From Acidobacteriaceae bacterium (GTDB taxonomy: Bacteria; Acidobacteriota; Terriglobia; Terriglobales; Acidobacteriaceae), in contig JAJPKO010000065.1 in assembly GCA_021323655.1 (NCBI GenBank), positions 124,001-188,000 of the forward strand: 64,000 bases of DNA, written 5' to 3'. Within the stretch, counting starts at the first letter, position 1; every line of letters starts with the position of its first letter. The position numbers were made by a program, and so were the translations under genes. Positions 37,258-50,025 of this stretch are shown here, one piece after another. The notes under the pieces were generated by a model, which was not told the origin of the DNA, did no database searches, and saw only the letters and a list, made by a program, of their open reading frames with translations.

Positions 37258-40200
37258 TTACAGTTTCGGCGTCAGGCGGATGAAGCGCCCGCTGTAGCGG
37301 TCCCAGTCTGAGAGCAGACGCTTGGCGCGGGTACTCCCCGTCTTTTCAGCGTGCAGCGTAATCAGGTCGCGAATGCTCTGCTGCGCTTCTGCTGAAAGAG
37401 CGTCGTAAGACTCGGGCAGCAGGAAATCGTTGTGGTAACGCTCGTCCTTGAGGAAAGTCCCGTCCTCATCAAAGACCCAGGCCAGCCCACCCGTCATGCC
37501 GGCGCCGAAATTGATTCCGGTGCTGCCCAGAATGACGGCGACGCCTCCGGTCATGTACTCGCAGCCGTGGTCGCCCACGCCTTCCACGATGGCCAGAGCG
37601 CCGGAGTTGCGGACGGCGAAGCGCTCGCCTGCGCGTCCGGCAGCAAAGAGCTTGCCGCTGGTTGCGCCGTAAAGCGCGACGTTGCCCAGAATGACGTGAC
37701 GCTCGCTTTCAAGCGCGGCACGGCCCTGTCCGCGAAGGATAATTTCTCCGCCGCAGAGTCCCTTGCCCACAAAGTCATTGGCCACCCCATCAAGGGTAAG
37801 CGTCATACCGGAAACAGCGAAGGCCCCGAAGGACTGCCCAGCTACTCCTTTAAGACGGAAGGCCACAGGTGCCTTTGGTTCGACGCCGTAGTCCTGAAGC
37901 AGGGCCAGCTCACCCGCGATGCGCGCACCGAGGGTGCGGTTTTCATTGGTGATGGTGGCTTCGACCTCAAAGGGCTTGCCTTCCTTGTAGGCAGCGACGG
38001 CCGGAGCGACCCAGGCGTCGTCAATTTCCGGATGCTCCTGCGGGCGCAGATTGCGCTTGCCTTGCCACGAACGCGGTGAATCGTTGACCGGAGCGGCCAG
38101 CAGCGGCTTCAGGTCAAGGCCGCCATCGTAACGCACCTGTTCAAGCAGGTCCGTGCGGCCGATCGCCGCTTCGAGCGAGGGCAGGCCCAGCTTCGCCAGC
38201 CAGAACTGAATGTCGCGGGCCAGTTCCTCAAAGAACTTGACCAGGTTTTCAGCCCGTCCGCGGAACTTCGCGCGCAGGTCAGGGCGCTGCGTGGCGATCC
38301 CCGTCGGGCAGGTGTTCAGATGGCATTGGCGGGCCATATCGCAACCGAGCGCGACGAGTACCGCGGTGCCAAAGGCGTATTCATCCGCGCCAAGCATTGC
38401 AGCGTAGAGAACATCTTTTGCCGTGCGGAGGCCGCCGTCGGTACGCAGGCGAACCCGTCCGCGCAGACCGTTCCGGATCAGGATCTGCTGCGCTTCAGCC
38501 AGACCAAGCTCCCACGGATTACCCGCATACTTGATGCTCGAAAGCGGTGAAGCTCCCGTGCCTCCGTTGTGTCCCGCAATGACGATGTAATCGGCATAGG
38601 CCTTGGCCACGCCAGCTGCGACGGTGCCTACTCCGAGTTCGGAGACCAGCTTGACGCCGATCGCCGCATTCGGATTGACCCTGCGCAAATCGTGAATGAG
38701 CTGCGCAAGGTCTTCAATCGAATAAATGTCGTGGTGCGGCGTCGGACTGATGAGCTGGATGCCGGGCTGCGCGTGGCGCAGACGCGCAATCAGCTCCGTG
38801 ACTTTGTGTCCCGGAAGCTGGCCGCCTTCGCCTGGTTTCGATCCCTGGGCGATCTTGATCTCAATCTCCTCAGCATTCATCAGGTATTCCGCCGTGACGC
38901 CGAAGCGCGCCGAGGCTACCTGCTTGATCTTGTTGTTGAGCAGCGGCGCAGGGTAGTTCACGCCAGTGAGAGTGATTTCGCCCTTGGGGTCATAAACCGC
39001 GCGGTCTTCCCCACCCTCGCCCGTATTCGATCGTCCGCCAAGCATGTTCATCGCAGCGGTGATGGTCTGGTGCGCCTCCGGGCTGAGCGAGCCGAGCGAC
39101 ATGGCACTGGCAATAAAGCGCTTGTAGTAGTTCGACGAAGGCTCCACCTGGTCAAAGCCAAGCGGGGCCGCGGCGGGCTTGATTTCCAGCAGGTCGCGCA
39201 GCACCGACGGCTCTTTTTCGACCGCAATGCTGGCAAAGGCGCTCCAGGCCTGTCCTGCTTCCGCAACGGGAACAGATGCTCCGCGTGCAGTGCCTACCAC
39301 GGTTTGCAGCAGGCGCACGGTCTGCGGCTGCCAGCCATGCGGCTCAGCCTTGTCGGCCTTGCGAAAGCGGATCCAACCGTAATCAGGCAGGTCTTTCACC
39401 GCCGTGGTGGTGATACCCGTGGTGGTGATACCTTCGCCATTGGCCGCATCACCATTCTCGTTAAAGCTGGCAGTCCAGAGGTCGCGCACCTGGCTCTCCA
39501 GCGCAGTAAAGCCAATGCCGCCCAACGGAGCAGGTGTTCCGAAGAAGCACTTGTCCACCACTTCCTGGCTGAGGCCGAGTGAGTCAAAGAGGTGCGCTCC
39601 ACGGTAGCTGTCCACCACCGAGATGCCCATCTTGGACATGATCTTGGCCAGGCCCAGATCAAAGGCGTGCAGCAGGTTCTCTTCGCCTTTTTCCGGATTG
39701 GCAGCGCGCGCCGTTTCCAGCGCCAGCCACGGGCACACCGCACCTGCTCCCATGCCGAGCAGCACAGCGCCATGATGCAGATCACGGCAGTCGCCGGCTT
39801 CCACGGCGAGACCAACACGGGTACGCTCGCCTGCGCGAATCAGCGCGTGATGCACCGCGCCCGTCGCCAGCGCCATGGGAACCGGAATCGCATTCTGACT
39901 ACATGTGCGGTCCGTCAGCAGAAGGATGGCCGCACCTCCGCGGACCAGATCAATGGCCTTGGCACAGAGATCGTCAAGCGCAGTCAGCAGGTTGCACGCG
40001 GGATTGAAAACACAATCGAGCACAGCAAGTGGAAGCTCATCCGTCAGGCCATGCTGGCGCGTGCGCAATGCTTCCATCTGCCCCAGTGACAGGAATGGTG
40101 AAGACAGTGAGAGTCCGGGCAGCGGCGCTTTCTTGTTGAGAAGATCAGGCCACGGGCCGAGACGCGTGTGCAACTGCACCACACAGGCCTCGCGCAGCGA

Positions 40201-41718
40201 ATCAATCGGCGGATTGGTGACCTGCGCAAAGCGCTGCCGGAAATAGGCATAGACCGGACGCGGCGTGCGCGCCAGCGGCGCCAGCGGCGTGTCATCGCCC
40301 ATGGACCAGACTGCGTCCTTGCCGTCATTGGCCATCGGCTGCAGGATCATCTTCACGTCTTCGCGCGTATATCCAAAGCCAAGCTGCAGGCGCAGCACTT
40401 CTGCTGAATCAAGCGCCGCGACCGGCGTGTTCGGGTCGAGCGTCGTCTCTTCAAGCAGGTTCTCGTATTGCGGTGCTGCGTTGTCGAAGATCTGCAGAAG
40501 CTCATCATTCTCATAGAGCTTCTGCTTTTCTATATCGGCGACGATCATCTCGCCGGGCCCCAGGCGCCCGCTATGGACGACCTTCTCCGGATCGAGGTCT
40601 ACCAGACCGGCCTCGGAACCAACGACAACGATGTCATCTGTCACGAAGAAGCGGCAGGGGCGCAGACCATTGCGGTCCAGCGCTGCGCCGATAAATCGTC
40701 CATCGGTAAAGGAAATCGCAGCCGGGCCATCCCACGGCTCCAGCACATCTTCATTGTAGGCAAAAAATGCCGAGTTGCCTTTTTCCTGCGCGGGCGGCAG
40801 CAGCAGACGCACAGATTCCGCAATGGTGCGGCCATTGTTCGCCAGCAGTTCCAGCATTTCATCGAGGCTGGTCGAGTCAGAACCGTCCGGGCTGATGAGC
40901 GGCTTCAGCTCATCGGGAAGCAGCGGCGCGCGCGCATCCAGACGGGCGCGGTTTCCCCATACCGTATTGATTTCGCCATTGTGCGCCAGCATGCGGAACG
41001 GCTGCGCGCGGTCCCACGAAGGAGCAACGTTGGTTGCATAGCGCTGATGAAAAAGCGCGAAGTGCGTAACGAAACGCGGGTCCTTAAGGTCAGGAAAAAA
41101 CTCAGGCAACAGGCGTCCGGCGCACATGCTCTTGTAAATCATCGTGGTGGACGAGAGCGAGCACACATATCCGGGCGCGCCGCTGCGCTCAAACTGCTTG
41201 CGCGCAAGATAGAGGCGGCGATTGAGATGCTCTGCGTTGTCCGAGGTAATCAGCACTTGCCGGATGACAGGCATGGTAGAGAGGGCAATTTCTCCCAGGA
41301 CTTCCGGACGGGTGGGTACATCACGCCAAACCAGCACGCGACAACCCTGTGCCGCCAGCGCCTGCTCCAGTTCGGTGTGGTCTTCTGCCACGTCGGGCGG
41401 AAAGAAGACCACGCCCACCGCCAGAGGCGCGTCGTCAGCCAGCGCAATGCTACAGGACGCGAGCAGAAATTCGCGCGGAACGCCGGTACAGATACCGATG
41501 CCGTCGCTCGACTTGCCATCCGCAGCCACTGCACCGCGATGGGCGAGCCGGGAGAGCGCAATCAGCGCCTTGTCCAGAATGTCATACGAGGGGCTGTTCT
41601 TGAGCGTGGCAATAAAACCCACTCCGCAGGATTCATGCTCAAAACGCGGATCTACAAGGGAAGAGACACCATTGCGTCCCGCCGGTACCGGCGAACAAGA
41701 GAATTTTATGTGGCCCAT
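37258..41718 (-). CDS. gltB: Glutamate synthase large subunit
   Basis: A 1486-residue GOGAT large subunit transferring the amide of glutamine to 2-oxoglutarate. The N-terminal class II glutaminase has its nucleophile Cys31 in HESCGVGF after a propeptide. The central and FMN-binding synthase domains contain RSNTGEGGEDRAVY, IKQVASARFGVTAEYL, IKIAQGSKPGEGGQLPG and LRTDGGLRTAKDV. The 3Fe-4S cluster is CDMARQCHLNTC. The C-terminal beta-helix domain (GGVAVILGSTGINFGAGMTG) is complete. The small subunit gene gltD is not in the window. It is divergent from the arg operon, with about 175 bp between the two coding starts. Confidence 0.98.
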   Translation of the reverse strand: MGHIKFSCSPVPAGRNGVSSLVDPRFEHESCGVGFIATLKNSPSYDILDKALIALSRLAHRGAVAADGKSSDGIGICTGVPREFLLASCSIALADDAPLAVGVVFFPPDVAEDHTELEQALAAQGCRVLVWRDVPTRPEVLGEIALSTMPVIRQVLITSDNAEHLNRRLYLARKQFERSGAPGYVCSLSSTTMIYKSMCAGRLLPEFFPDLKDPRFVTHFALFHQRYATNVAPSWDRAQPFRMLAHNGEINTVWGNRARLDARAPLLPDELKPLISPDGSDSTSLDEMLELLANNGRTIAESVRLLLPPAQEKGNSAFFAYNEDVLEPWDGPAAISFTDGRFIGAALDRNGLRPCRFFVTDDIVVVGSEAGLVDLDPEKVVHSGRLGPGEMIVADIEKQKLYENDELLQIFDNAAPQYENLLEETTLDPNTPVAALDSAEVLRLQLGFGYTREDVKMILQPMANDGKDAVWSMGDDTPLAPLARTPRPVYAYFRQRFAQVTNPPIDSLREACVVQLHTRLGPWPDLLNKKAPLPGLSLSSPFLSLGQMEALRTRQHGLTDELPLAVLDCVFNPACNLLTALDDLCAKAIDLVRGGAAILLLTDRTCSQNAIPVPMALATGAVHHALIRAGERTRVGLAVEAGDCRDLHHGAVLLGMGAGAVCPWLALETARAANPEKGEENLLHAFDLGLAKIMSKMGISVVDSYRGAHLFDSLGLSQEVVDKCFFGTPAPLGGIGFTALESQVRDLWTASFNENGDAANGEGITTTGITTTAVKDLPDYGWIRFRKADKAEPHGWQPQTVRLLQTVVGTARGASVPVAEAGQAWSAFASIAVEKEPSVLRDLLEIKPAAAPLGFDQVEPSSNYYKRFIASAMSLGSLSPEAHQTITAAMNMLGGRSNTGEGGEDRAVYDPKGEITLTGVNYPAPLLNNKIKQVASARFGVTAEYLMNAEEIEIKIAQGSKPGEGGQLPGHKVTELIARLRHAQPGIQLISPTPHHDIYSIEDLAQLIHDLRRVNPNAAIGVKLVSELGVGTVAAGVAKAYADYIVIAGHNGGTGASPLSSIKYAGNPWELGLAEAQQILIRNGLRGRVRLRTDGGLRTAKDVLYAAMLGADEYAFGTAVLVALGCDMARQCHLNTCPTGIATQRPDLRAKFRGRAENLVKFFEELARDIQFWLAKLGLPSLEAAIGRTDLLEQVRYDGGLDLKPLLAAPVNDSPRSWQGKRNLRPQEHPEIDDAWVAPAVAAYKEGKPFEVEATITNENRTLGARIAGELALLQDYGVEPKAPVAFRLKGVAGQSFGAFAVSGMTLTLDGVANDFVGKGLCGGEIILRGQGRAALESERHVILGNVALYGATSGKLFAAGRAGERFAVRNSGALAIVEGVGDHGCEYMTGGVAVILGSTGINFGAGMTGGLAWVFDEDGTFLKDERYHNDFLLPESYDALSAEAQQSIRDLITLHAEKTGSTRAKRLLSDWDRYSGRFIRLTPKL

Positions 41719-41848
41719 AGCTAACTATACTTCGCTTTCTGCTGGCAGGCAGTAAAAAAATTAACGGAAATTCAACGAAAGCGCGCTTGACTCGTGCATG
41801 CATCGCTTTTGTTTATGCGCGCAAGAAAAAACTTTTATCAGAAATATA

Positions 41849-41877
41849 TTGACAAAAGCGCACTGCATATTTATACA
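41849..41877 (+). promoter_or_regulatory. Sigma-70-type promoter of the arginine operon
   Basis: TTGACA (41849-41854) and TATACA (41872-41877) are separated by 17 bp, a near-consensus housekeeping promoter. Transcription would begin near 41884. The -10 element lies inside the first ARG-box-like palindrome. Confidence 0.85.
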
Positions 41878-41900
41878 ATTGATTTGTATTTTTATGCAAG
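41862..41900. promoter_or_regulatory. Pair of ARG-box-like operators
   Basis: Two near-palindromes, TGCAT-ATTT-ATACA (41864-41877) and TGTAT-TTTT-ATGCA (41885-41898), fit the ArgR half-site layout of 5+4+5 (consensus TGAAT-WWWW-ATTCA). Their centres are 21 bp apart, leaving 3 bp between 18-bp boxes, the same spacing as the paired ARG boxes of E. coli. The first covers the -10 element and the second the transcription start, so ArgR binding should block the operon. Confidence 0.75.
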
Positions 41901-42400
41901 ATGGAGGCGCGCGGCATACCGGCCGCGTTTTTTCAGTTTTGAGTAAGACGGAAAGACATAACGCAATCCGCGATCTGGTGGCCACCACGGCCATCTCCAA
42001 CCAGGAGGAGCTGCGCCGCAAGCTCATTCGCCGCGGCTTCGATGTGACGCAGGCGACCGTCTCGCGCGACATCCACGAGCTGCACCTGTACAAGGGGCCC
42101 AGCGGCTACGCGCTTCCCAGCGGAAATGGCAACGGGCACCTCCGTGAAGAAGAGGACAGCGGTTTGCCTGCCGTTCATGAAGTTCTGCGAAGCTTTGGAC
42201 TGAAGGTTAAGCAGGCGCAGAACCAGCTCGTCCTGATCACGGCCAGTGGCGGCGCGCAGCCTGTGGCGCTGGCCATTGATCATGAAGATTGGAAGGAAGT
42301 CGTCGGAACACTGGCCGGCGATGACACGGTCCTGATTATTTGCCCGGACCAGAAGAGTGCGTCGAAGCTGAAGGCGCGCCTGGAAGAGATGATTGGATGA
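41894..42400 (+). CDS. argR: Arginine repressor
   Basis: A regulator with an N-terminal winged helix (SKTERHNAIRDLV; SNQEELRRKLIRRGFDVTQATVSRDIHEL) and a C-terminal hexamerisation/arginine-binding domain (LVLITASGGAQPVALAIDHE; VVGTLAGDDTVLIICPD). The start is unclear. ATG 41894 lies inside the second operator and only ~10 nt after the predicted transcript start, and the frame is open upstream. TTG 41939 would give the usual N-terminus (SKTERHNAI) but has no Shine-Dalgarno site. It is the first gene of the arg operon and overlaps argC by 4 bp, which implies autoregulation together with the operator pair. Confidence 0.93.
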   Translation: MQDGGARHTGRVFSVLSKTERHNAIRDLVATTAISNQEELRRKLIRRGFDVTQATVSRDIHELHLYKGPSGYALPSGNGNGHLREEEDSGLPAVHEVLRSFGLKVKQAQNQLVLITASGGAQPVALAIDHEDWKEVVGTLAGDDTVLIICPDQKSASKLKARLEEMIG

Positions 42401-43449
42401 CGAAGAAGATACAAACCGCAGTGATGGGAGTTTCCGGATACGCCGGAGCGGAGCTGGCGCGCATTCTGCTGCATCATCCGCAGCTCAGGGGCGTGCCGCC
42501 TGTTTTCCTCGGGCGCGCCGAGGCTGCGCAGCCGCTGACCGAACTGCATCCTCAACTGATGGACAATAACGGCTCCCACGCGCTGAAGGTCGAGCCATTC
42601 TCGTGGGAGCTGCTGAAAGAGCGCAGCGTGGATGTTTTGTTTCTTGCGACTCCGCATGAACAGTCGCGGGAGTGGGCGCCACAGGCGCTTGAGCACGGCA
42701 TCCGCGTCGTGGACCTGAGCGGTGCGTGGCGGCTTGCCCATGCAGAAAACCGCGCTGTGTATAAATTTGCGGATGAAGGCTCGGCAGTCGCTGTCCAGAC
42801 GCAGACCAAAGCTGTCTATGGAATGCCCGAGCTATATCGCGCGGAGATCAAAGACGCGGACCTGGTCGCCAATCCCGGATGCTACTCAACTTCGGTCATT
42901 CTTCCGCTCAGGCCGCTCGTAGCCAAGGGCTGGATTGACCTTGACCGTGGCATCGTAAGCGATTCGAAGTCCGGCGTCTCCGGAGCCGGCAAGGTCCCCA
43001 CCGCGAAGACACATTTTATGCATGCGGCAGACAATCTTTCTGCGTATGGCGTCTTCGGGCACCGGCACACGGGCGAACTGCTCGAACAGCTTGATCTGAA
43101 GCCAGAGCAGATCACCTTCACGCCGCATCTGCTGCCGATTCCGCGTGGCATTCTCTCGACCATTTACGTTGCCTTCAAAGAGAAGAAGACACCCGAGCAG
43201 GTCGAATCTTGCTTCCGCGAATTCTATAAAGACAGTCCGCTGGTGCGGCTCTTCCCTGCTGGCCATCTGCCGCAGATTCAGTATTCGGTGCGCACCAATT
43301 TCTGCGACATAGGATTTCAACTCGCCGTCGATGGGCGACGATGCGTCATCGTCTCCTGCCTTGACAACCTGCTGAAAGGCGCTGCCGGACAAGCGGTGCA
43401 AAACCTGAATGTAATGTATGGATGGGATGAAGCGGAGGGGTTGATATGA
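42397..43449 (+). CDS. argC: N-acetyl-gamma-glutamyl-phosphate reductase
   Basis: A 350-residue NADPH-dependent reductase making N-acetylglutamate semialdehyde. The Rossmann start is AVMGVSGYAGAELARIL, and the catalytic Cys162 is in VANPGCYSTSVILPL. SDSKSGVSGAGKVPT and FTPHLLPIPRGILSTIYV are family hallmarks. ATG 42397 overlaps the argR stop (ATGA), and the gene's own stop overlaps the argB start in the same way, so argR, argC and argB are tightly coupled. Confidence 0.97.
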   Translation: MTKKIQTAVMGVSGYAGAELARILLHHPQLRGVPPVFLGRAEAAQPLTELHPQLMDNNGSHALKVEPFSWELLKERSVDVLFLATPHEQSREWAPQALEHGIRVVDLSGAWRLAHAENRAVYKFADEGSAVAVQTQTKAVYGMPELYRAEIKDADLVANPGCYSTSVILPLRPLVAKGWIDLDRGIVSDSKSGVSGAGKVPTAKTHFMHAADNLSAYGVFGHRHTGELLEQLDLKPEQITFTPHLLPIPRGILSTIYVAFKEKKTPEQVESCFREFYKDSPLVRLFPAGHLPQIQYSVRTNFCDIGFQLAVDGRRCVIVSCLDNLLKGAAGQAVQNLNVMYGWDEAEGLI

Positions 43450-44228
43450 AGTTCGTAATCAAACTCGGCGGAGCGACCCTTGAAAATCCTGACCTGCGCG
43501 AAAGCTGCGCCAAAGCCATCGCCGAACTGGTGAAGGACGGCAGTCAGGTAGTTTTGGTGCACGGCGGAGGCGTGCAGCTGACGCGTACCCTCAAGCAGCT
43601 TGGCAAGCAGAGCGAATTTATCGCTGGACTGCGCGTGACCGATGCCGAAACGCGCGACACGGCGCTGATGGTTCTGAGCGGCCAGGTGAATAAATCTCTC
43701 GTCGCCGCCCTGGGCAAGCATGGACAATCGGCCGTCGGTCTCTGCGGCGGCGATGGCCTCGTCTTCCGCGCACGCAAAAAACGCACGGCGCCGGACCTCG
43801 GCTTTGTGGGCGAGATTGTTGCCTCGGACCCGCGCTGGATTGAGGCCATCTGGAAGATGGGCGCTGTGCCTGTGATTTCAAGCATCGCCCTCGGCTTCGA
43901 TGGCGAATACTACAACGTGAACGCCGATGAAATGGCCGCGGCCTGCGCTGCTGCCTGTAAGGCCGATGCGCTCGTCTTTCTCACCGACGTTCCCGGCGTA
44001 AAAGATGCGAACGGCGAAGTAATGCGCTGGCTCTCCATTGACCAGATTGCGAAGCTGGCCAAAGACGCAGTCATCAGCGGCGGAATGCTGCCAAAGCTCA
44101 GCGCCTGCCGCGAAGCTCTGCTTCAAGGCGTCAAGCGCGTGCGCATTCTGCCCGCCGAGGCCGCCGGCGTTCTGCCCGACTTGTGCAGCACACGCATTAC
44201 GCACGGAACAGAAGTTATGGTGGCGTAA
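43446..44228 (+). CDS. argB: Acetylglutamate kinase
   Basis: A 260-residue amino-acid kinase phosphorylating N-acetylglutamate. It has KLGGATLENPD near the N-terminus, the substrate loop VLVHGGGVQLT, YNVNADEMAAACAAACKADALVFLTDVPGV and a C-terminal GGMLPKLSACREAL. Its short length and lack of an N-terminal helix extension suggest the E. coli-like form. That form is generally not arginine-inhibited, which would leave control to ArgR and the synthase; this last step is inference. Confidence 0.96.
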   Translation: MKFVIKLGGATLENPDLRESCAKAIAELVKDGSQVVLVHGGGVQLTRTLKQLGKQSEFIAGLRVTDAETRDTALMVLSGQVNKSLVAALGKHGQSAVGLCGGDGLVFRARKKRTAPDLGFVGEIVASDPRWIEAIWKMGAVPVISSIALGFDGEYYNVNADEMAAACAAACKADALVFLTDVPGVKDANGEVMRWLSIDQIAKLAKDAVISGGMLPKLSACREALLQGVKRVRILPAEAAGVLPDLCSTRITHGTEVMVA

Positions 44229-44384: not shown

Positions 44385-45644
44385 ATGAAACTCGATTCCA
44401 TTCGCGCGGCAGAGGCAAAACTGCTGCTCAATACCTACGAGCGCAGTCCCCTTCTCTTCGTTCGCGGAGAAGGCGTTCATCTCATAGATGAGAACGGCGA
44501 CCGCTACCTTGATCTTTTGAGCGGCATCGGCGTCAATGCGCTCGGCTACGGTCACCCGGCAGTAGTGGACACGATTGCGGAACAAAGCAAAAAACTCGTC
44601 CATATTTCAAACCTGTTCTTTCACGAAGGACAGGCCGAACTTGCCCTTCGCCTGACGGAAAAAAGCGGAATGGACCGCGCCTTCTTCTGCAACAGCGGAA
44701 CAGAGGCGATGGAGGCCGCGCTGAAACTGGCGCGCGCACATGCCGGGAAAAAGCGCTGCGAAGGCAAGGCGCTGGGCACCAAAATCCTGGCCCTCGAACA
44801 CAGCTTCCACGGACGCACCATGGGCTCCGTTGCCGCCACGCACAAGGAAAAATACCGTGAGCCGTTTGCTCCGGTCATGCCGGGCGTGGAGTTTGTCCGT
44901 TTCGATGATGTCACAGACCTGAAAGCTAAATTCTCCAATGAAGTCTGCGCCATCCTGCTTGAAGCCATTCAGGGTGAGGGCGGCATCCGCCCCGTCTCGC
45001 AGCAGTTCATCCAGGCTGCGCGCGAGCTCACGCAATCCACCGGAGCATTGCTCATCGTGGATGAAATCCAGGCCGGACTTGCTCGCACCGGAAAATGGTT
45101 TGCCTACCAGCATTACCGCATTCAGCCGGACGTGATCACCATCGCCAAGCCGCTCGCTGGAGGACTGCCACTGGGCGCGATGCTCTGCAGGGAAGAGGCC
45201 GCGCAGGCCATTCATCCCGGCATGCACGGCACCACCTTTGGCGGAGGCCCGCTGGCTTGCGCTGTCGCCATTGCCGTAATAGACGCAATTGAGAAAGAGC
45301 ACCTGCTCGACCACATCAACAAAGTAGGCAGCCACTTCCGCCAGCAGCTCGAATCGTTGAAGCAGAAGCACAGTGCCATCACCGCTGTGCGCGGACTCGG
45401 CCTGATGCTGGCCATCGAAATTGACTCCGCAGACCTGGCAAAGACCGCTCTCGGAGAGATGACAAAGCGCCGCATTCTCATCAATCGAACCAGCGAGACG
45501 GTGCTGCGTTTCCTGCCGCCTTACGTCATTCAGAAGCAGCACGTAGATGAAGCCATTGCCGCTCTCGACGAAACCTTTACCGAGCACAGCCCTGCCTATG
45601 CCGGCGAGCACGCTCATACCCAGGGAGGAACCAAAATTGGCTAG
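44385..45644 (+). CDS. argD: Acetylornithine aminotransferase
   Basis: A 419-residue class III PLP aminotransferase converting N-acetylglutamate semialdehyde to N-acetylornithine. The PLP-contact Asp226 is in LLIVDEIQAGLARTG, and the Schiff-base Lys255 is in DVITIAKPLAGGLPLGAML. FFCNSGTEAMEAALKLAR and LEHSFHGRTMGS are present. A GGAG site precedes ATG 44385. It is the first gene after the REP-containing gap and overlaps the argF start by 8 bp. Confidence 0.95.
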   Translation: MKLDSIRAAEAKLLLNTYERSPLLFVRGEGVHLIDENGDRYLDLLSGIGVNALGYGHPAVVDTIAEQSKKLVHISNLFFHEGQAELALRLTEKSGMDRAFFCNSGTEAMEAALKLARAHAGKKRCEGKALGTKILALEHSFHGRTMGSVAATHKEKYREPFAPVMPGVEFVRFDDVTDLKAKFSNEVCAILLEAIQGEGGIRPVSQQFIQAARELTQSTGALLIVDEIQAGLARTGKWFAYQHYRIQPDVITIAKPLAGGLPLGAMLCREEAAQAIHPGMHGTTFGGGPLACAVAIAVIDAIEKEHLLDHINKVGSHFRQQLESLKQKHSAITAVRGLGLMLAIEIDSADLAKTALGEMTKRRILINRTSETVLRFLPPYVIQKQHVDEAIAALDETFTEHSPAYAGEHAHTQGGTKIG

Positions 45645-46632
45645 CAAAACACTCGCAGTTCTTGAACCGGAAGCTGGTCTGGAGGCGGCGCTTGCAGGGC
45701 GCGACCTCTGCTCCATCTCTGACCTGACGCCGCAGGAAGTCTCTGCCATTCTGGACCTTGCGCACGACGTAAAAGCACACCCCTCCAGCTATCGCCATGC
45801 GCTCGACGCAAAGCAGATGGTCATGTTCTTTGAGAAGTCGTCTCTGCGCACGCGCCTCACCTTTGAGACGGCCATCAACACGACGGGCGGCAATGCCATC
45901 TTTGTAGACCAGACACAATCGCCGCTCGGCGAGCGCGAGTCGCTGGCCGATATGTCGCGCAATCTCGAGCGTTGGGTCTCGGTCATTGTTCTGCGCACGT
46001 ATGCACATGAGACCATCACGGAAATGGCCCAGTACGCCAGCGTTCCGGTCATCAATGCACTGAGCGACCTCGAGCATCCATGCCAGGCGCTGGCCGATTT
46101 CATGACGCTCCAGGAACGCTTCGGAAACCTGAAGGGGCTCAAATTTACTTATGTCGGAGACGGCAACAACGTCTGCCATTCGCTCCTGCTGACCGCGGCG
46201 CAGCTAGGCGCGCACTGCACCATCGGTACGCCAAAGAACTACGCGCCAAAGGCCGACATCGTTGCACAGGCCCGCGCCATTGCCAACGTGACCGGCAGCG
46301 ACATCACCATCATCAACGACCCGATCGCCGCAGTCTCCGGGGCCGACGCCGTTTACACCGACGTCTGCACTAGCATGGGCTTTGAGCATGAAGCCACCAA
46401 GCGCGCACCCATCTTCAAGCCGTATCAGGTGAATGAAACCCTGATGTCACACGCCGCTTCGCACGCTATCTTTATGCACTGTCTGCCCGCGCACCGCAAT
46501 GCTGAGGTTACCGACGCTGTACTCGACGGCCCGCAGTCGGTGGTCTTCGACCAGGCCGAGAACCGGATGCACGCGCAGAAGGCACTGCTGCTCTTATTGC
46601 TGGGTGCGGGAAAGAAGGCTGTGAAGAAGTGA
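45637..46632 (+). CDS. argF: Ornithine carbamoyltransferase
   Basis: A 331-residue enzyme forming citrulline from ornithine and carbamoyl phosphate. The carbamoyl-phosphate loop SLRTR (69-73, a variant of STRTR) lies in MFFEKSSLRTRLTFE. HPCQALADFMT and FMHCLPAHR (ornithine site) support ornithine rather than aspartate or acetylornithine as the acceptor. The start is TTG 45637, with GGAGG (45624-45628) 8 nt upstream; longer in-frame starts lie well inside argD. It overlaps argD by 8 bp. Confidence 0.95.
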   Translation: MASKTLAVLEPEAGLEAALAGRDLCSISDLTPQEVSAILDLAHDVKAHPSSYRHALDAKQMVMFFEKSSLRTRLTFETAINTTGGNAIFVDQTQSPLGERESLADMSRNLERWVSVIVLRTYAHETITEMAQYASVPVINALSDLEHPCQALADFMTLQERFGNLKGLKFTYVGDGNNVCHSLLLTAAQLGAHCTIGTPKNYAPKADIVAQARAIANVTGSDITIINDPIAAVSGADAVYTDVCTSMGFEHEATKRAPIFKPYQVNETLMSHAASHAIFMHCLPAHRNAEVTDAVLDGPQSVVFDQAENRMHAQKALLLLLLGAGKKAVKK

Positions 46633-46680: not shown

Positions 46681-49503
<2,823 letters not shown>

Positions 49504-49517
<14 letters not shown>

Positions 49518-50025
49518 GGCGCGCCTTCAGGATGCAACCAATATCTTCGAGCTGGTCAACAGTCTCTCCGGCGACGGCACGCTTCTGCGCCGCGCCTTTG
49601 CGGAAATCTGCGAGAACGTGCGCGACTTCACCGTGGCCGAAAGCGACTCCGGAATCTTCCTGGGCTGCGGCGCGCTCCATCTCTACGGGCCGCATCTGGC
49701 CGAGGTACGCTCCATCGTCGTCCGACCAGAAGCCAAAGGCCAGGGCGCGGGCGCAAATATCCTGAATGCGCTGCTTGAAGAAGCAGAAGACCACGGTGTG
49801 GGATGCGTCTGCCTCTTCACGCGCATTCCTGATTTCTTTTTCAAGTATGGATTTCGCGTGGTGGAAGACCGCGCCGCGCTTCCTGACAAAATCTTCAAAG
49901 ATTGCCAGAACTGCCCGCGTCTTTACCGTTGCGATGAAGTGGCCATGGCCCGTGGGCAGGTGCCGAAGGTCTCAATTCTGGGCCCAAGAGTGGAAGCGGA
50001 ACAACTGGTGCGTCTGGCCGGATAG
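49504..50025 (+). CDS. argA: Short N-acetylglutamate synthase (GNAT family)
   Basis: A 173-residue GNAT acetyltransferase. Acetyl-CoA motif A is VRSIVVRPEAKGQGAGANIL, followed by FTRIPDFFFKYGFRVVEDRA, as in amino-acid acetyltransferases of the stand-alone NAGS type. Three cysteines (about 134, 137 and 143) form CxxCx5C in KDCQNCPRLYRCDEVAM, a feature of this subgroup. It lacks the kinase-like domain of classical ArgA. In some bacteria an equivalent domain is fused to the C-terminus of ArgH; here it is separate but overlaps argH by 14 bp. It would supply the first committed intermediate, N-acetylglutamate. Confidence 0.85.

Follow-up and report, generated by a model that had tools for sequence, protein, structure and literature searches.

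An ArgR site conserved in all bacterial lineages was reportedly claimed in the title of an article by Makarova, Mironov and Gelfand in 2001, and an ArgR operator in one more phylum is therefore unsurprising, although the earlier note on this DNA had pointed to direct autorepression in a distant phylum. In Escherichia coli, according to passages of PMC6640053, ArgR operators consist of two 18-bp boxes separated by 3 bp (centres 21 bp apart), to which the hexamer binds on one face of the helix. The boxes of biosynthetic operators are described in the same passages as lying upstream of the transcription start and partly overlapping the -10 and/or -35 elements, and ArgR itself as apparently unable to block elongating polymerase efficiently. 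The gltBDF operon of E. coli is bound and directly repressed by ArgR, as stated in a section of PMC1784095. With respect to attenuators, predictions have been made in phyla such as Acidobacteria, almost none of them with an associated function in the portion of PMC2965389 that deals with them. In the open literature searched, of whose matches at least part was viewed, no printed ArgR operator or consensus for Acidobacteria was found.

The arginine operon and its repressor gene

The window, i.e. the whole 64-kb stretch of Acidobacteriaceae DNA analyzed here, carries on one strand the gene order argR-argC-argB-argD-argF-argG-argH, followed by a gene for a GNAT acetyltransferase (Table 1). The genes from argR to argH are presumably transcribed together. 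The acetyltransferase gene overlaps the end of argH and seems to close the arginine run, while the true start of argF probably lies further inside the listed ORF.

Table 1. Features of the argR region, with positions counted from the first nucleotide of the window.
Feature	Position	Strand	Basis or remark
gltB, glutamate synthase large subunit	37258-41718	-	divergent from argR, start 146 bp from box 1
-35-to-box-2 stretch	41849-41898		TTGACA, 9 bp, TGCATATTTATACA, 7 bp, TGTATTTTTATGCA
-35 hexamer TTGACA	41849-41854	+	sequence; at least 5/6 match upstream of box 1 in orthologues
ARG box 1 core TGCATATTTATACA	41864-41877	.	sequence, matrix score, kept in orthologues
-10 hexamer TATACA	41872-41877	+	last six bases of box 1; 17-bp gap to -35
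Predicted transcription start	41884	+	7 nt past -10; by inference only
ARG box 2 core TGTATTTTTATGCA	41885-41898	.	sequence, matrix score, kept in orthologues
GGAGG, Shine-Dalgarno-like	41903-41907	+	just 5' of hairpin; can partly pair with U-tract
Leader hairpin CGCGGC-ATACCG-GCCGCG	41910-41927	+	hairpin scan, fold, recurrence in relatives
T6 run after hairpin, terminator-like	41928-41933	+	sequence
argR	41939-42400	+	probable TTG start; both ArgR domains, solved relatives
argC	42397-43449	+	TIGR01850 above cut-off
argB	43446-44228	+	TIGR00761 above cut-off
argD	44385-45644	+	TIGR00707 above cut-off
argF	45547-46632	+	TIGR00658 above cut-off, match from residue 52; ORF as listed
argG	46699-48060	+	PRK05370 above cut-off
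argH	48057-49517	+	TIGR00838 above cut-off
argA-like GNAT acetyltransferase	49504-50025	+	PRK07757 148.7 bits, just below cut-off 154; Pfam GNAT

The position of argR as first gene of the operon, put forward in the earlier note, was confirmed, since its product contains both ArgR domains above their gathering scores (the DNA-binding domain PF01316, 64.4 bits with a cut-off of 27; the C-terminal domain PF02863, 78.9 bits with a cut-off of 25) and a run of arg genes lies downstream. The equivalog cut-off of TIGR01529 was missed (120 bits vs. 130.45, the query being the 200-aa ORF from an upstream ATG); the name of the protein was therefore based on the two domains and on its relatives rather than on this model. 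Its best solved relatives were arginine repressors, with 1f9n and 1b4a closest, and a GT..GDDT stretch was common to ArgR and a solved arginine repressor/activator.

A pair of ARG boxes over the argR promoter

The two boxes, TGCATATTTATACA and TGTATTTTTATGCA, fit TGNATNNNNATNCA (TGNAT-N4-ATNCA) with no mismatch in either of them, and their centres, at 41870.5 and 41891.5, are separated by 21 bp, in agreement with the two 14-bp boxes at this distance that had been described from the letters alone. The accompanying term "half-site format" was not retained, since each 14-mer forms the core of a full ARG box of 18 bp, and "exactly 21 bp" is accurate for the window pair but not as a rule, given that 20 bp is at least as common among relatives. 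Internal symmetry amounted to five of seven pairs in box 1 and four of seven in box 2, and the 35-bp unit formed by both boxes is itself a dyad (13 of 17 pairs).

A genome scan for TGNAT-N4-ATNCA, one of the checks suggested in the earlier note, returned 70 exact boxes in the 4.59 Mb of the host genome, from which approximately 0.001 exact pairs per genome would be expected by chance at one fixed spacing. Based on a scoring matrix built from orthologous pairs, with the host genome left out, the window pair reached a score of 46.7 (range of the orthologous pairs, 25.7 to 55.4), while the second-best window pair without a shared box scored -4.8; when the window was shuffled letter by letter five times, no pair scored above 9.4. 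Any -10 region is AT-rich by nature and could on that account come to resemble ARG boxes by chance, yet this explanation is hardly credible in view of the small expected number of pairs at one spacing, the shuffle results and the conservation in relatives detailed below. Features of the operator class found at this locus were the fit of both boxes to the consensus, a centre spacing within 20-21 bp (close to two helical turns), a position upstream of arginine genes and overlap with the promoter. The two boxes would together constitute one predicted operator at which the hexameric arginine repressor, the product of the adjacent gene, would act, a reading to which we assign a probability of roughly 0.88. 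The pair is very likely an ArgR operator of ordinary arrangement mediating direct autorepression, the latter being suggested by its position ahead of argR and the arg genes.

Regarding the promoter, a consensus scan of positions 41600-42100 gave no sigma-70-type site. TATACA was missed because the rule of the scan accepts only T as the final -10 base, whereas this hexamer ends in A, and the promoter call therefore rests on the two hexamers and on their conservation. A -35-like hexamer (at least five of six matches) preceded box 1 by 8-40 bp in 50 of the 68 orthologous regions bearing a box pair, vs. 9.0 expected from shuffles, and was missing in 18. TATACA was found at the identical 17-bp spacing in 26 of these 68 regions and at a spacing of 18 in five more. 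The boxes had been said to cover the -10 element and the start: the -10 hexamer is inside box 1, and the predicted start (~41884) would fall between the boxes, at the box-2 end of the 7 bp that separate them, with the operator extending from about -20 to +15.

According to the mechanism proposed, arginine-loaded ArgR would occupy the two boxes from a single side of the helix. It would thereby lie across the -10 element and the start, from ~-20 to ~+15, and bar RNA polymerase from the promoter of argR-argC-argB-argD-argF-argG-argH; when arginine is scarce, ArgR would leave the operator. Taken together, the position of the boxes over the -10 element and the start and the apparently poor ability of E. 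coli ArgR to block elongating polymerase point to a block of initiation. From the letters of this locus and its orthologues we infer ArgR binding, its arginine dependence, the start site and the repression of the operon.

Conservation of the operator among relatives

Two sets of genomes were compared. The first comprised 70 of the 127 ArgR-positive genomes among 150 drawn, namely the more similar ones, with five in between omitted, and the second the 50 best-ranked new genomes of the 178 that passed 1e-50 among 398. Both sets favour genomes similar to the host, with closely related genomes each counted separately, and coverage of distant acidobacteria is therefore thin.

A box pair was found upstream of argR in 68 of the 70 family genomes of the first set, with centre spacings of 20 bp in 51, 21 bp in 16 and 22 bp in one. 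Summed mismatches per pair were 0 in 46 regions, 1 in 16, 2 in five and 3 in one, this last pair (by deduction that of L106, whose box 1 is exact) being included in the 68. Dinucleotide shuffles of the same regions (n = 2100) yielded no pair with at most one mismatch, two with at most two and eight with at most three. The regions that had no good, normally spaced pair were L139 and L149. In the second set, the pair was present upstream of argR in 48 of 50 genomes (49 by script, from which L216 was excluded by hand, its candidate having 3 mismatches and both halves unlike an ARG box); the two misses were L203 and L216. In L203, scored as a miss, two good ARG boxes were seen by eye upstream of argR, about 31 bp apart, or some three helical turns.

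Further layouts were observed with increasing distance from the host. In the less similar loci L142-L146, L148, L150 and L152-L154, box 2 abuts the argR start codon or extends into it, and the mRNA would be nearly leaderless. In distant acidobacteria (L038, L040, L081), ARG-box-like pairs are located about 100-120 bp ahead of argR, with another box-like site at the start codon, and the layouts of distant loci such as L028, L035 and L038 are unlike those of the family.

As for the gene start itself, ArgR homology began at the TTG in nine of the 70 first-set regions, the host included, and two codons later in many others. An in-frame upstream start at 41894 was considered and rejected, since the frame, though open in the host and a few distant loci, is closed in the nearest relatives listed (L086-L096).

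Other possible targets of ArgR

Among the matches listed in single-box searches of the host genome, no other two boxes had centres 20-21 bp apart. Neither the stretch taken for carA, a classical ArgR target, nor 12 box-like sites of the host genome had a second box at 20-21 bp, although one of these sites (C54) has a weak second match 19 bp away. Eight relatives were scanned for single boxes, with complete lists for five (G039, G047, G118, G070 and G035), and in all five the argR site was the only pair 20-21 bp apart with at most one mismatch to TGNATANTTATNCA per box. The ArgR system may be a one-operator local circuit at the level of the pairs listed, although targets with a single box, or at further places in the genome, may exist as well.

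Since gltB starts only 146 bp from the operator, on the other side, the pair could act on this gene too. Its E. coli counterpart is among the genes repressed upon ArgR binding (PMC1784095, same section), which lends some substance to the idea that the pair chiefly controls gltB and that argR autorepression is secondary. We nevertheless consider this very unlikely, as the boxes occupy the argR-side -10 element and box 2 reaches the argR start codon in some of the less similar relatives. A TATAGT was noted on the minus strand at 41724-41729, 5 nt before the gltB ATG, with a similar sequence seen by eye in some relatives, and the gltB mRNA may be nearly leaderless.

A recurrent hairpin in the argR leader

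Between box 2 and argR, a G+C-rich stem with a U-tract immediately 3' of it, as in intrinsic terminators, was detected at 41909-41933. The leader fold had a free energy of -18.6 kcal/mol (z = -2.57), with 5 of 200 shuffles equally good. When both sets were considered, hairpin plus T-run occurred in 46 of 103 leaders, vs. 6 of 894 control windows and 1 of 103 on the minus strand of the leaders. In the first set, for which the test was limited to leaders of at least 25 nt (n = 55), the strict criterion was satisfied by 25 leaders including that of the host, compared with 5 of 538 control windows, taken from the DNA ahead of box 1, and with 1 of 55 minus strands; a slightly laxer criterion also gave 25 of 55, with 2.7 expected from leader shuffles. 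The same strict criterion, unchanged, identified 21 of 48 leaders in the second set (L216 still included), 1 of 356 controls and 0 of 48 minus strands. A terminator serving the minus strand was discarded on the basis of these minus-strand counts (1 of 55 and 0 of 48).

The 46 hairpins had 46 distinct sequences, although a CGCGGC/GCCGCG core was common to the nearest relatives. Their stems start 0-23 nt past box 2 and end 8-102 nt ahead of the ArgR homology. The structure thus persists in spite of sequence change, and its position follows the operator and transcription start rather than the start of the gene; an intrinsic terminator is therefore favoured over a translation element. The hairpin and T-run look like a possible promoter-proximal intrinsic terminator and a candidate second control layer. 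In the corresponding two-layer scheme, the operator would act as described above and the predicted terminator at 41910-41933, about 45-50 nt past the start, would halt some of the transcripts that escape it, either constitutively or subject to relief by a ribosome or another factor on the leader.

This scheme is quite possible but falls short of probable, and the evidence on it is divided. The enrichment in leaders of both sets over control windows and minus strands and the constant place of 46 different hairpins at a variable gene distance speak for it, as does the stability of the leader fold. On the other hand, 57 of the 103 leaders failed the strict test, leaders shorter than 25 nt accompany 13 of 68 pairs in the first set and 1 of 49 in the second, box 2 is at the argR start codon in some loci, and the related genomes counted are not independent. 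A stricter scan of the 64-kb window returned ten hairpin plus T-run sites, six of them scored inside ORFs, the leader hairpin among these owing to the upstream argR start used in the ORF list. Besides the leader hairpin, three intergenic sites (one on the minus and two on the plus strand) were found; all three follow stop codons, in line with a terminator function, yet for both plus-strand sites the next ORF begins only about 50 nt further on.

No antiterminator or other means of relief was visible by eye in the leader, which has just some 25 nt 5' of the hairpin, and no conserved Arg-rich peptide was found to start at the ATG of box 2, the only starts considered; of the 46 hairpin loci, 32 have this ATG, and the frames it opens vary in length, phase and Arg content. 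For these starts, leader-peptide attenuation was therefore set aside. Both results weigh against two-layer control. A riboswitch or other known RNA was rejected, Rfam having given only two matches, both far below their gathering scores (L20_leader, 18.9 bits vs. 58.7; mir-4599, 15.7 vs. 100).

The hairpin might instead serve translation or mRNA stability, either by bringing GGAGG near the TTG across the stem, as a split ribosome site, or by protecting the 5' end of the mRNA. A GAGG- or AAGG-like stretch is located directly 5' of the stem, with the TTG about 10 nt 3' of it, in the host and at the same position in several nearest relatives, and no other Shine-Dalgarno-like sequence was seen by eye near the TTG. 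In the nearest relatives a split ribosome site, with GAGG and start codon parted by the same hairpin, is thus possible. As an account of the hairpin in general, however, a role in translation or stability is unlikely: elsewhere the hairpin stays at the operator with the gene start up to 102 nt away, GAGG was by eye not kept in many relatives, and the T-run would be superfluous for such a role. Protection of the 5' end is nevertheless compatible with these facts.

In six loci (L113, L190, L201, L206, L207 and L215), a shared similar stretch (around AAATTGAGCC...TTGACGACTTA) takes the place of the hairpin past box 2; it may be a second promoter or another element.

Significance and comparison with known systems

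The operator is ordinary and well supported, in a little-studied phylum, and the recurrent terminator-like leader is the less expected part. An ArgR operator and consensus for one acidobacterial family make arginine regulation there directly predictable and testable, while the hairpin, tied to the operator and not to the gene, represents a concrete candidate for a second control layer. The arrangement of the operator was to be expected, and the leader hairpin is the part worth an experiment. The predicted attenuators of the phylum are almost without known function, as far as the relevant portion of PMC2965389 goes. A bolder and rather doubtful proposal, offered tentatively, is that the arginine operon of Acidobacteriaceae has two switches stacked in about 70 bp, namely an ArgR operator over the start and, 0-23 nt behind it, a fast-evolving predicted terminator that would cut leaky transcripts at about 45-50 nt and might be relieved by ribosome binding to the leader, i.e. 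an operator-anchored attenuator with neither leader peptide nor ligand fold.

At the protein level, the host ArgR is closest among solved structures to 1f9n and 1b4a, which we take to be the Bacillus-type AhrC/ArgR repressors. With the ARG boxes that Makarova, Mironov and Gelfand reportedly described across lineages in 2001, the locus shares a conserved ArgR site before arg genes. The geometry of E. coli operators, to which the pair had been matched in the earlier note, was recovered in part. The box consensus, the presence of two boxes, the 21-bp centre spacing and the overlap with the promoter agree with the operators described in passages of PMC6640053, but the window boxes are placed further downstream (~-20 to +15) and many relatives have a spacing of 20 bp. 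Also unlike E. coli, argR leads the biosynthetic run, and a second 20-21-bp pair was absent among the matches listed. Compared with premature-terminator attenuators, as outlined in the portion of PMC2965389 cited above, the leader has in common a terminator-like hairpin and U-tract between the promoter and the first gene; it differs in that no alternative fold was seen and in that its hairpin is fixed to the ArgR operator.
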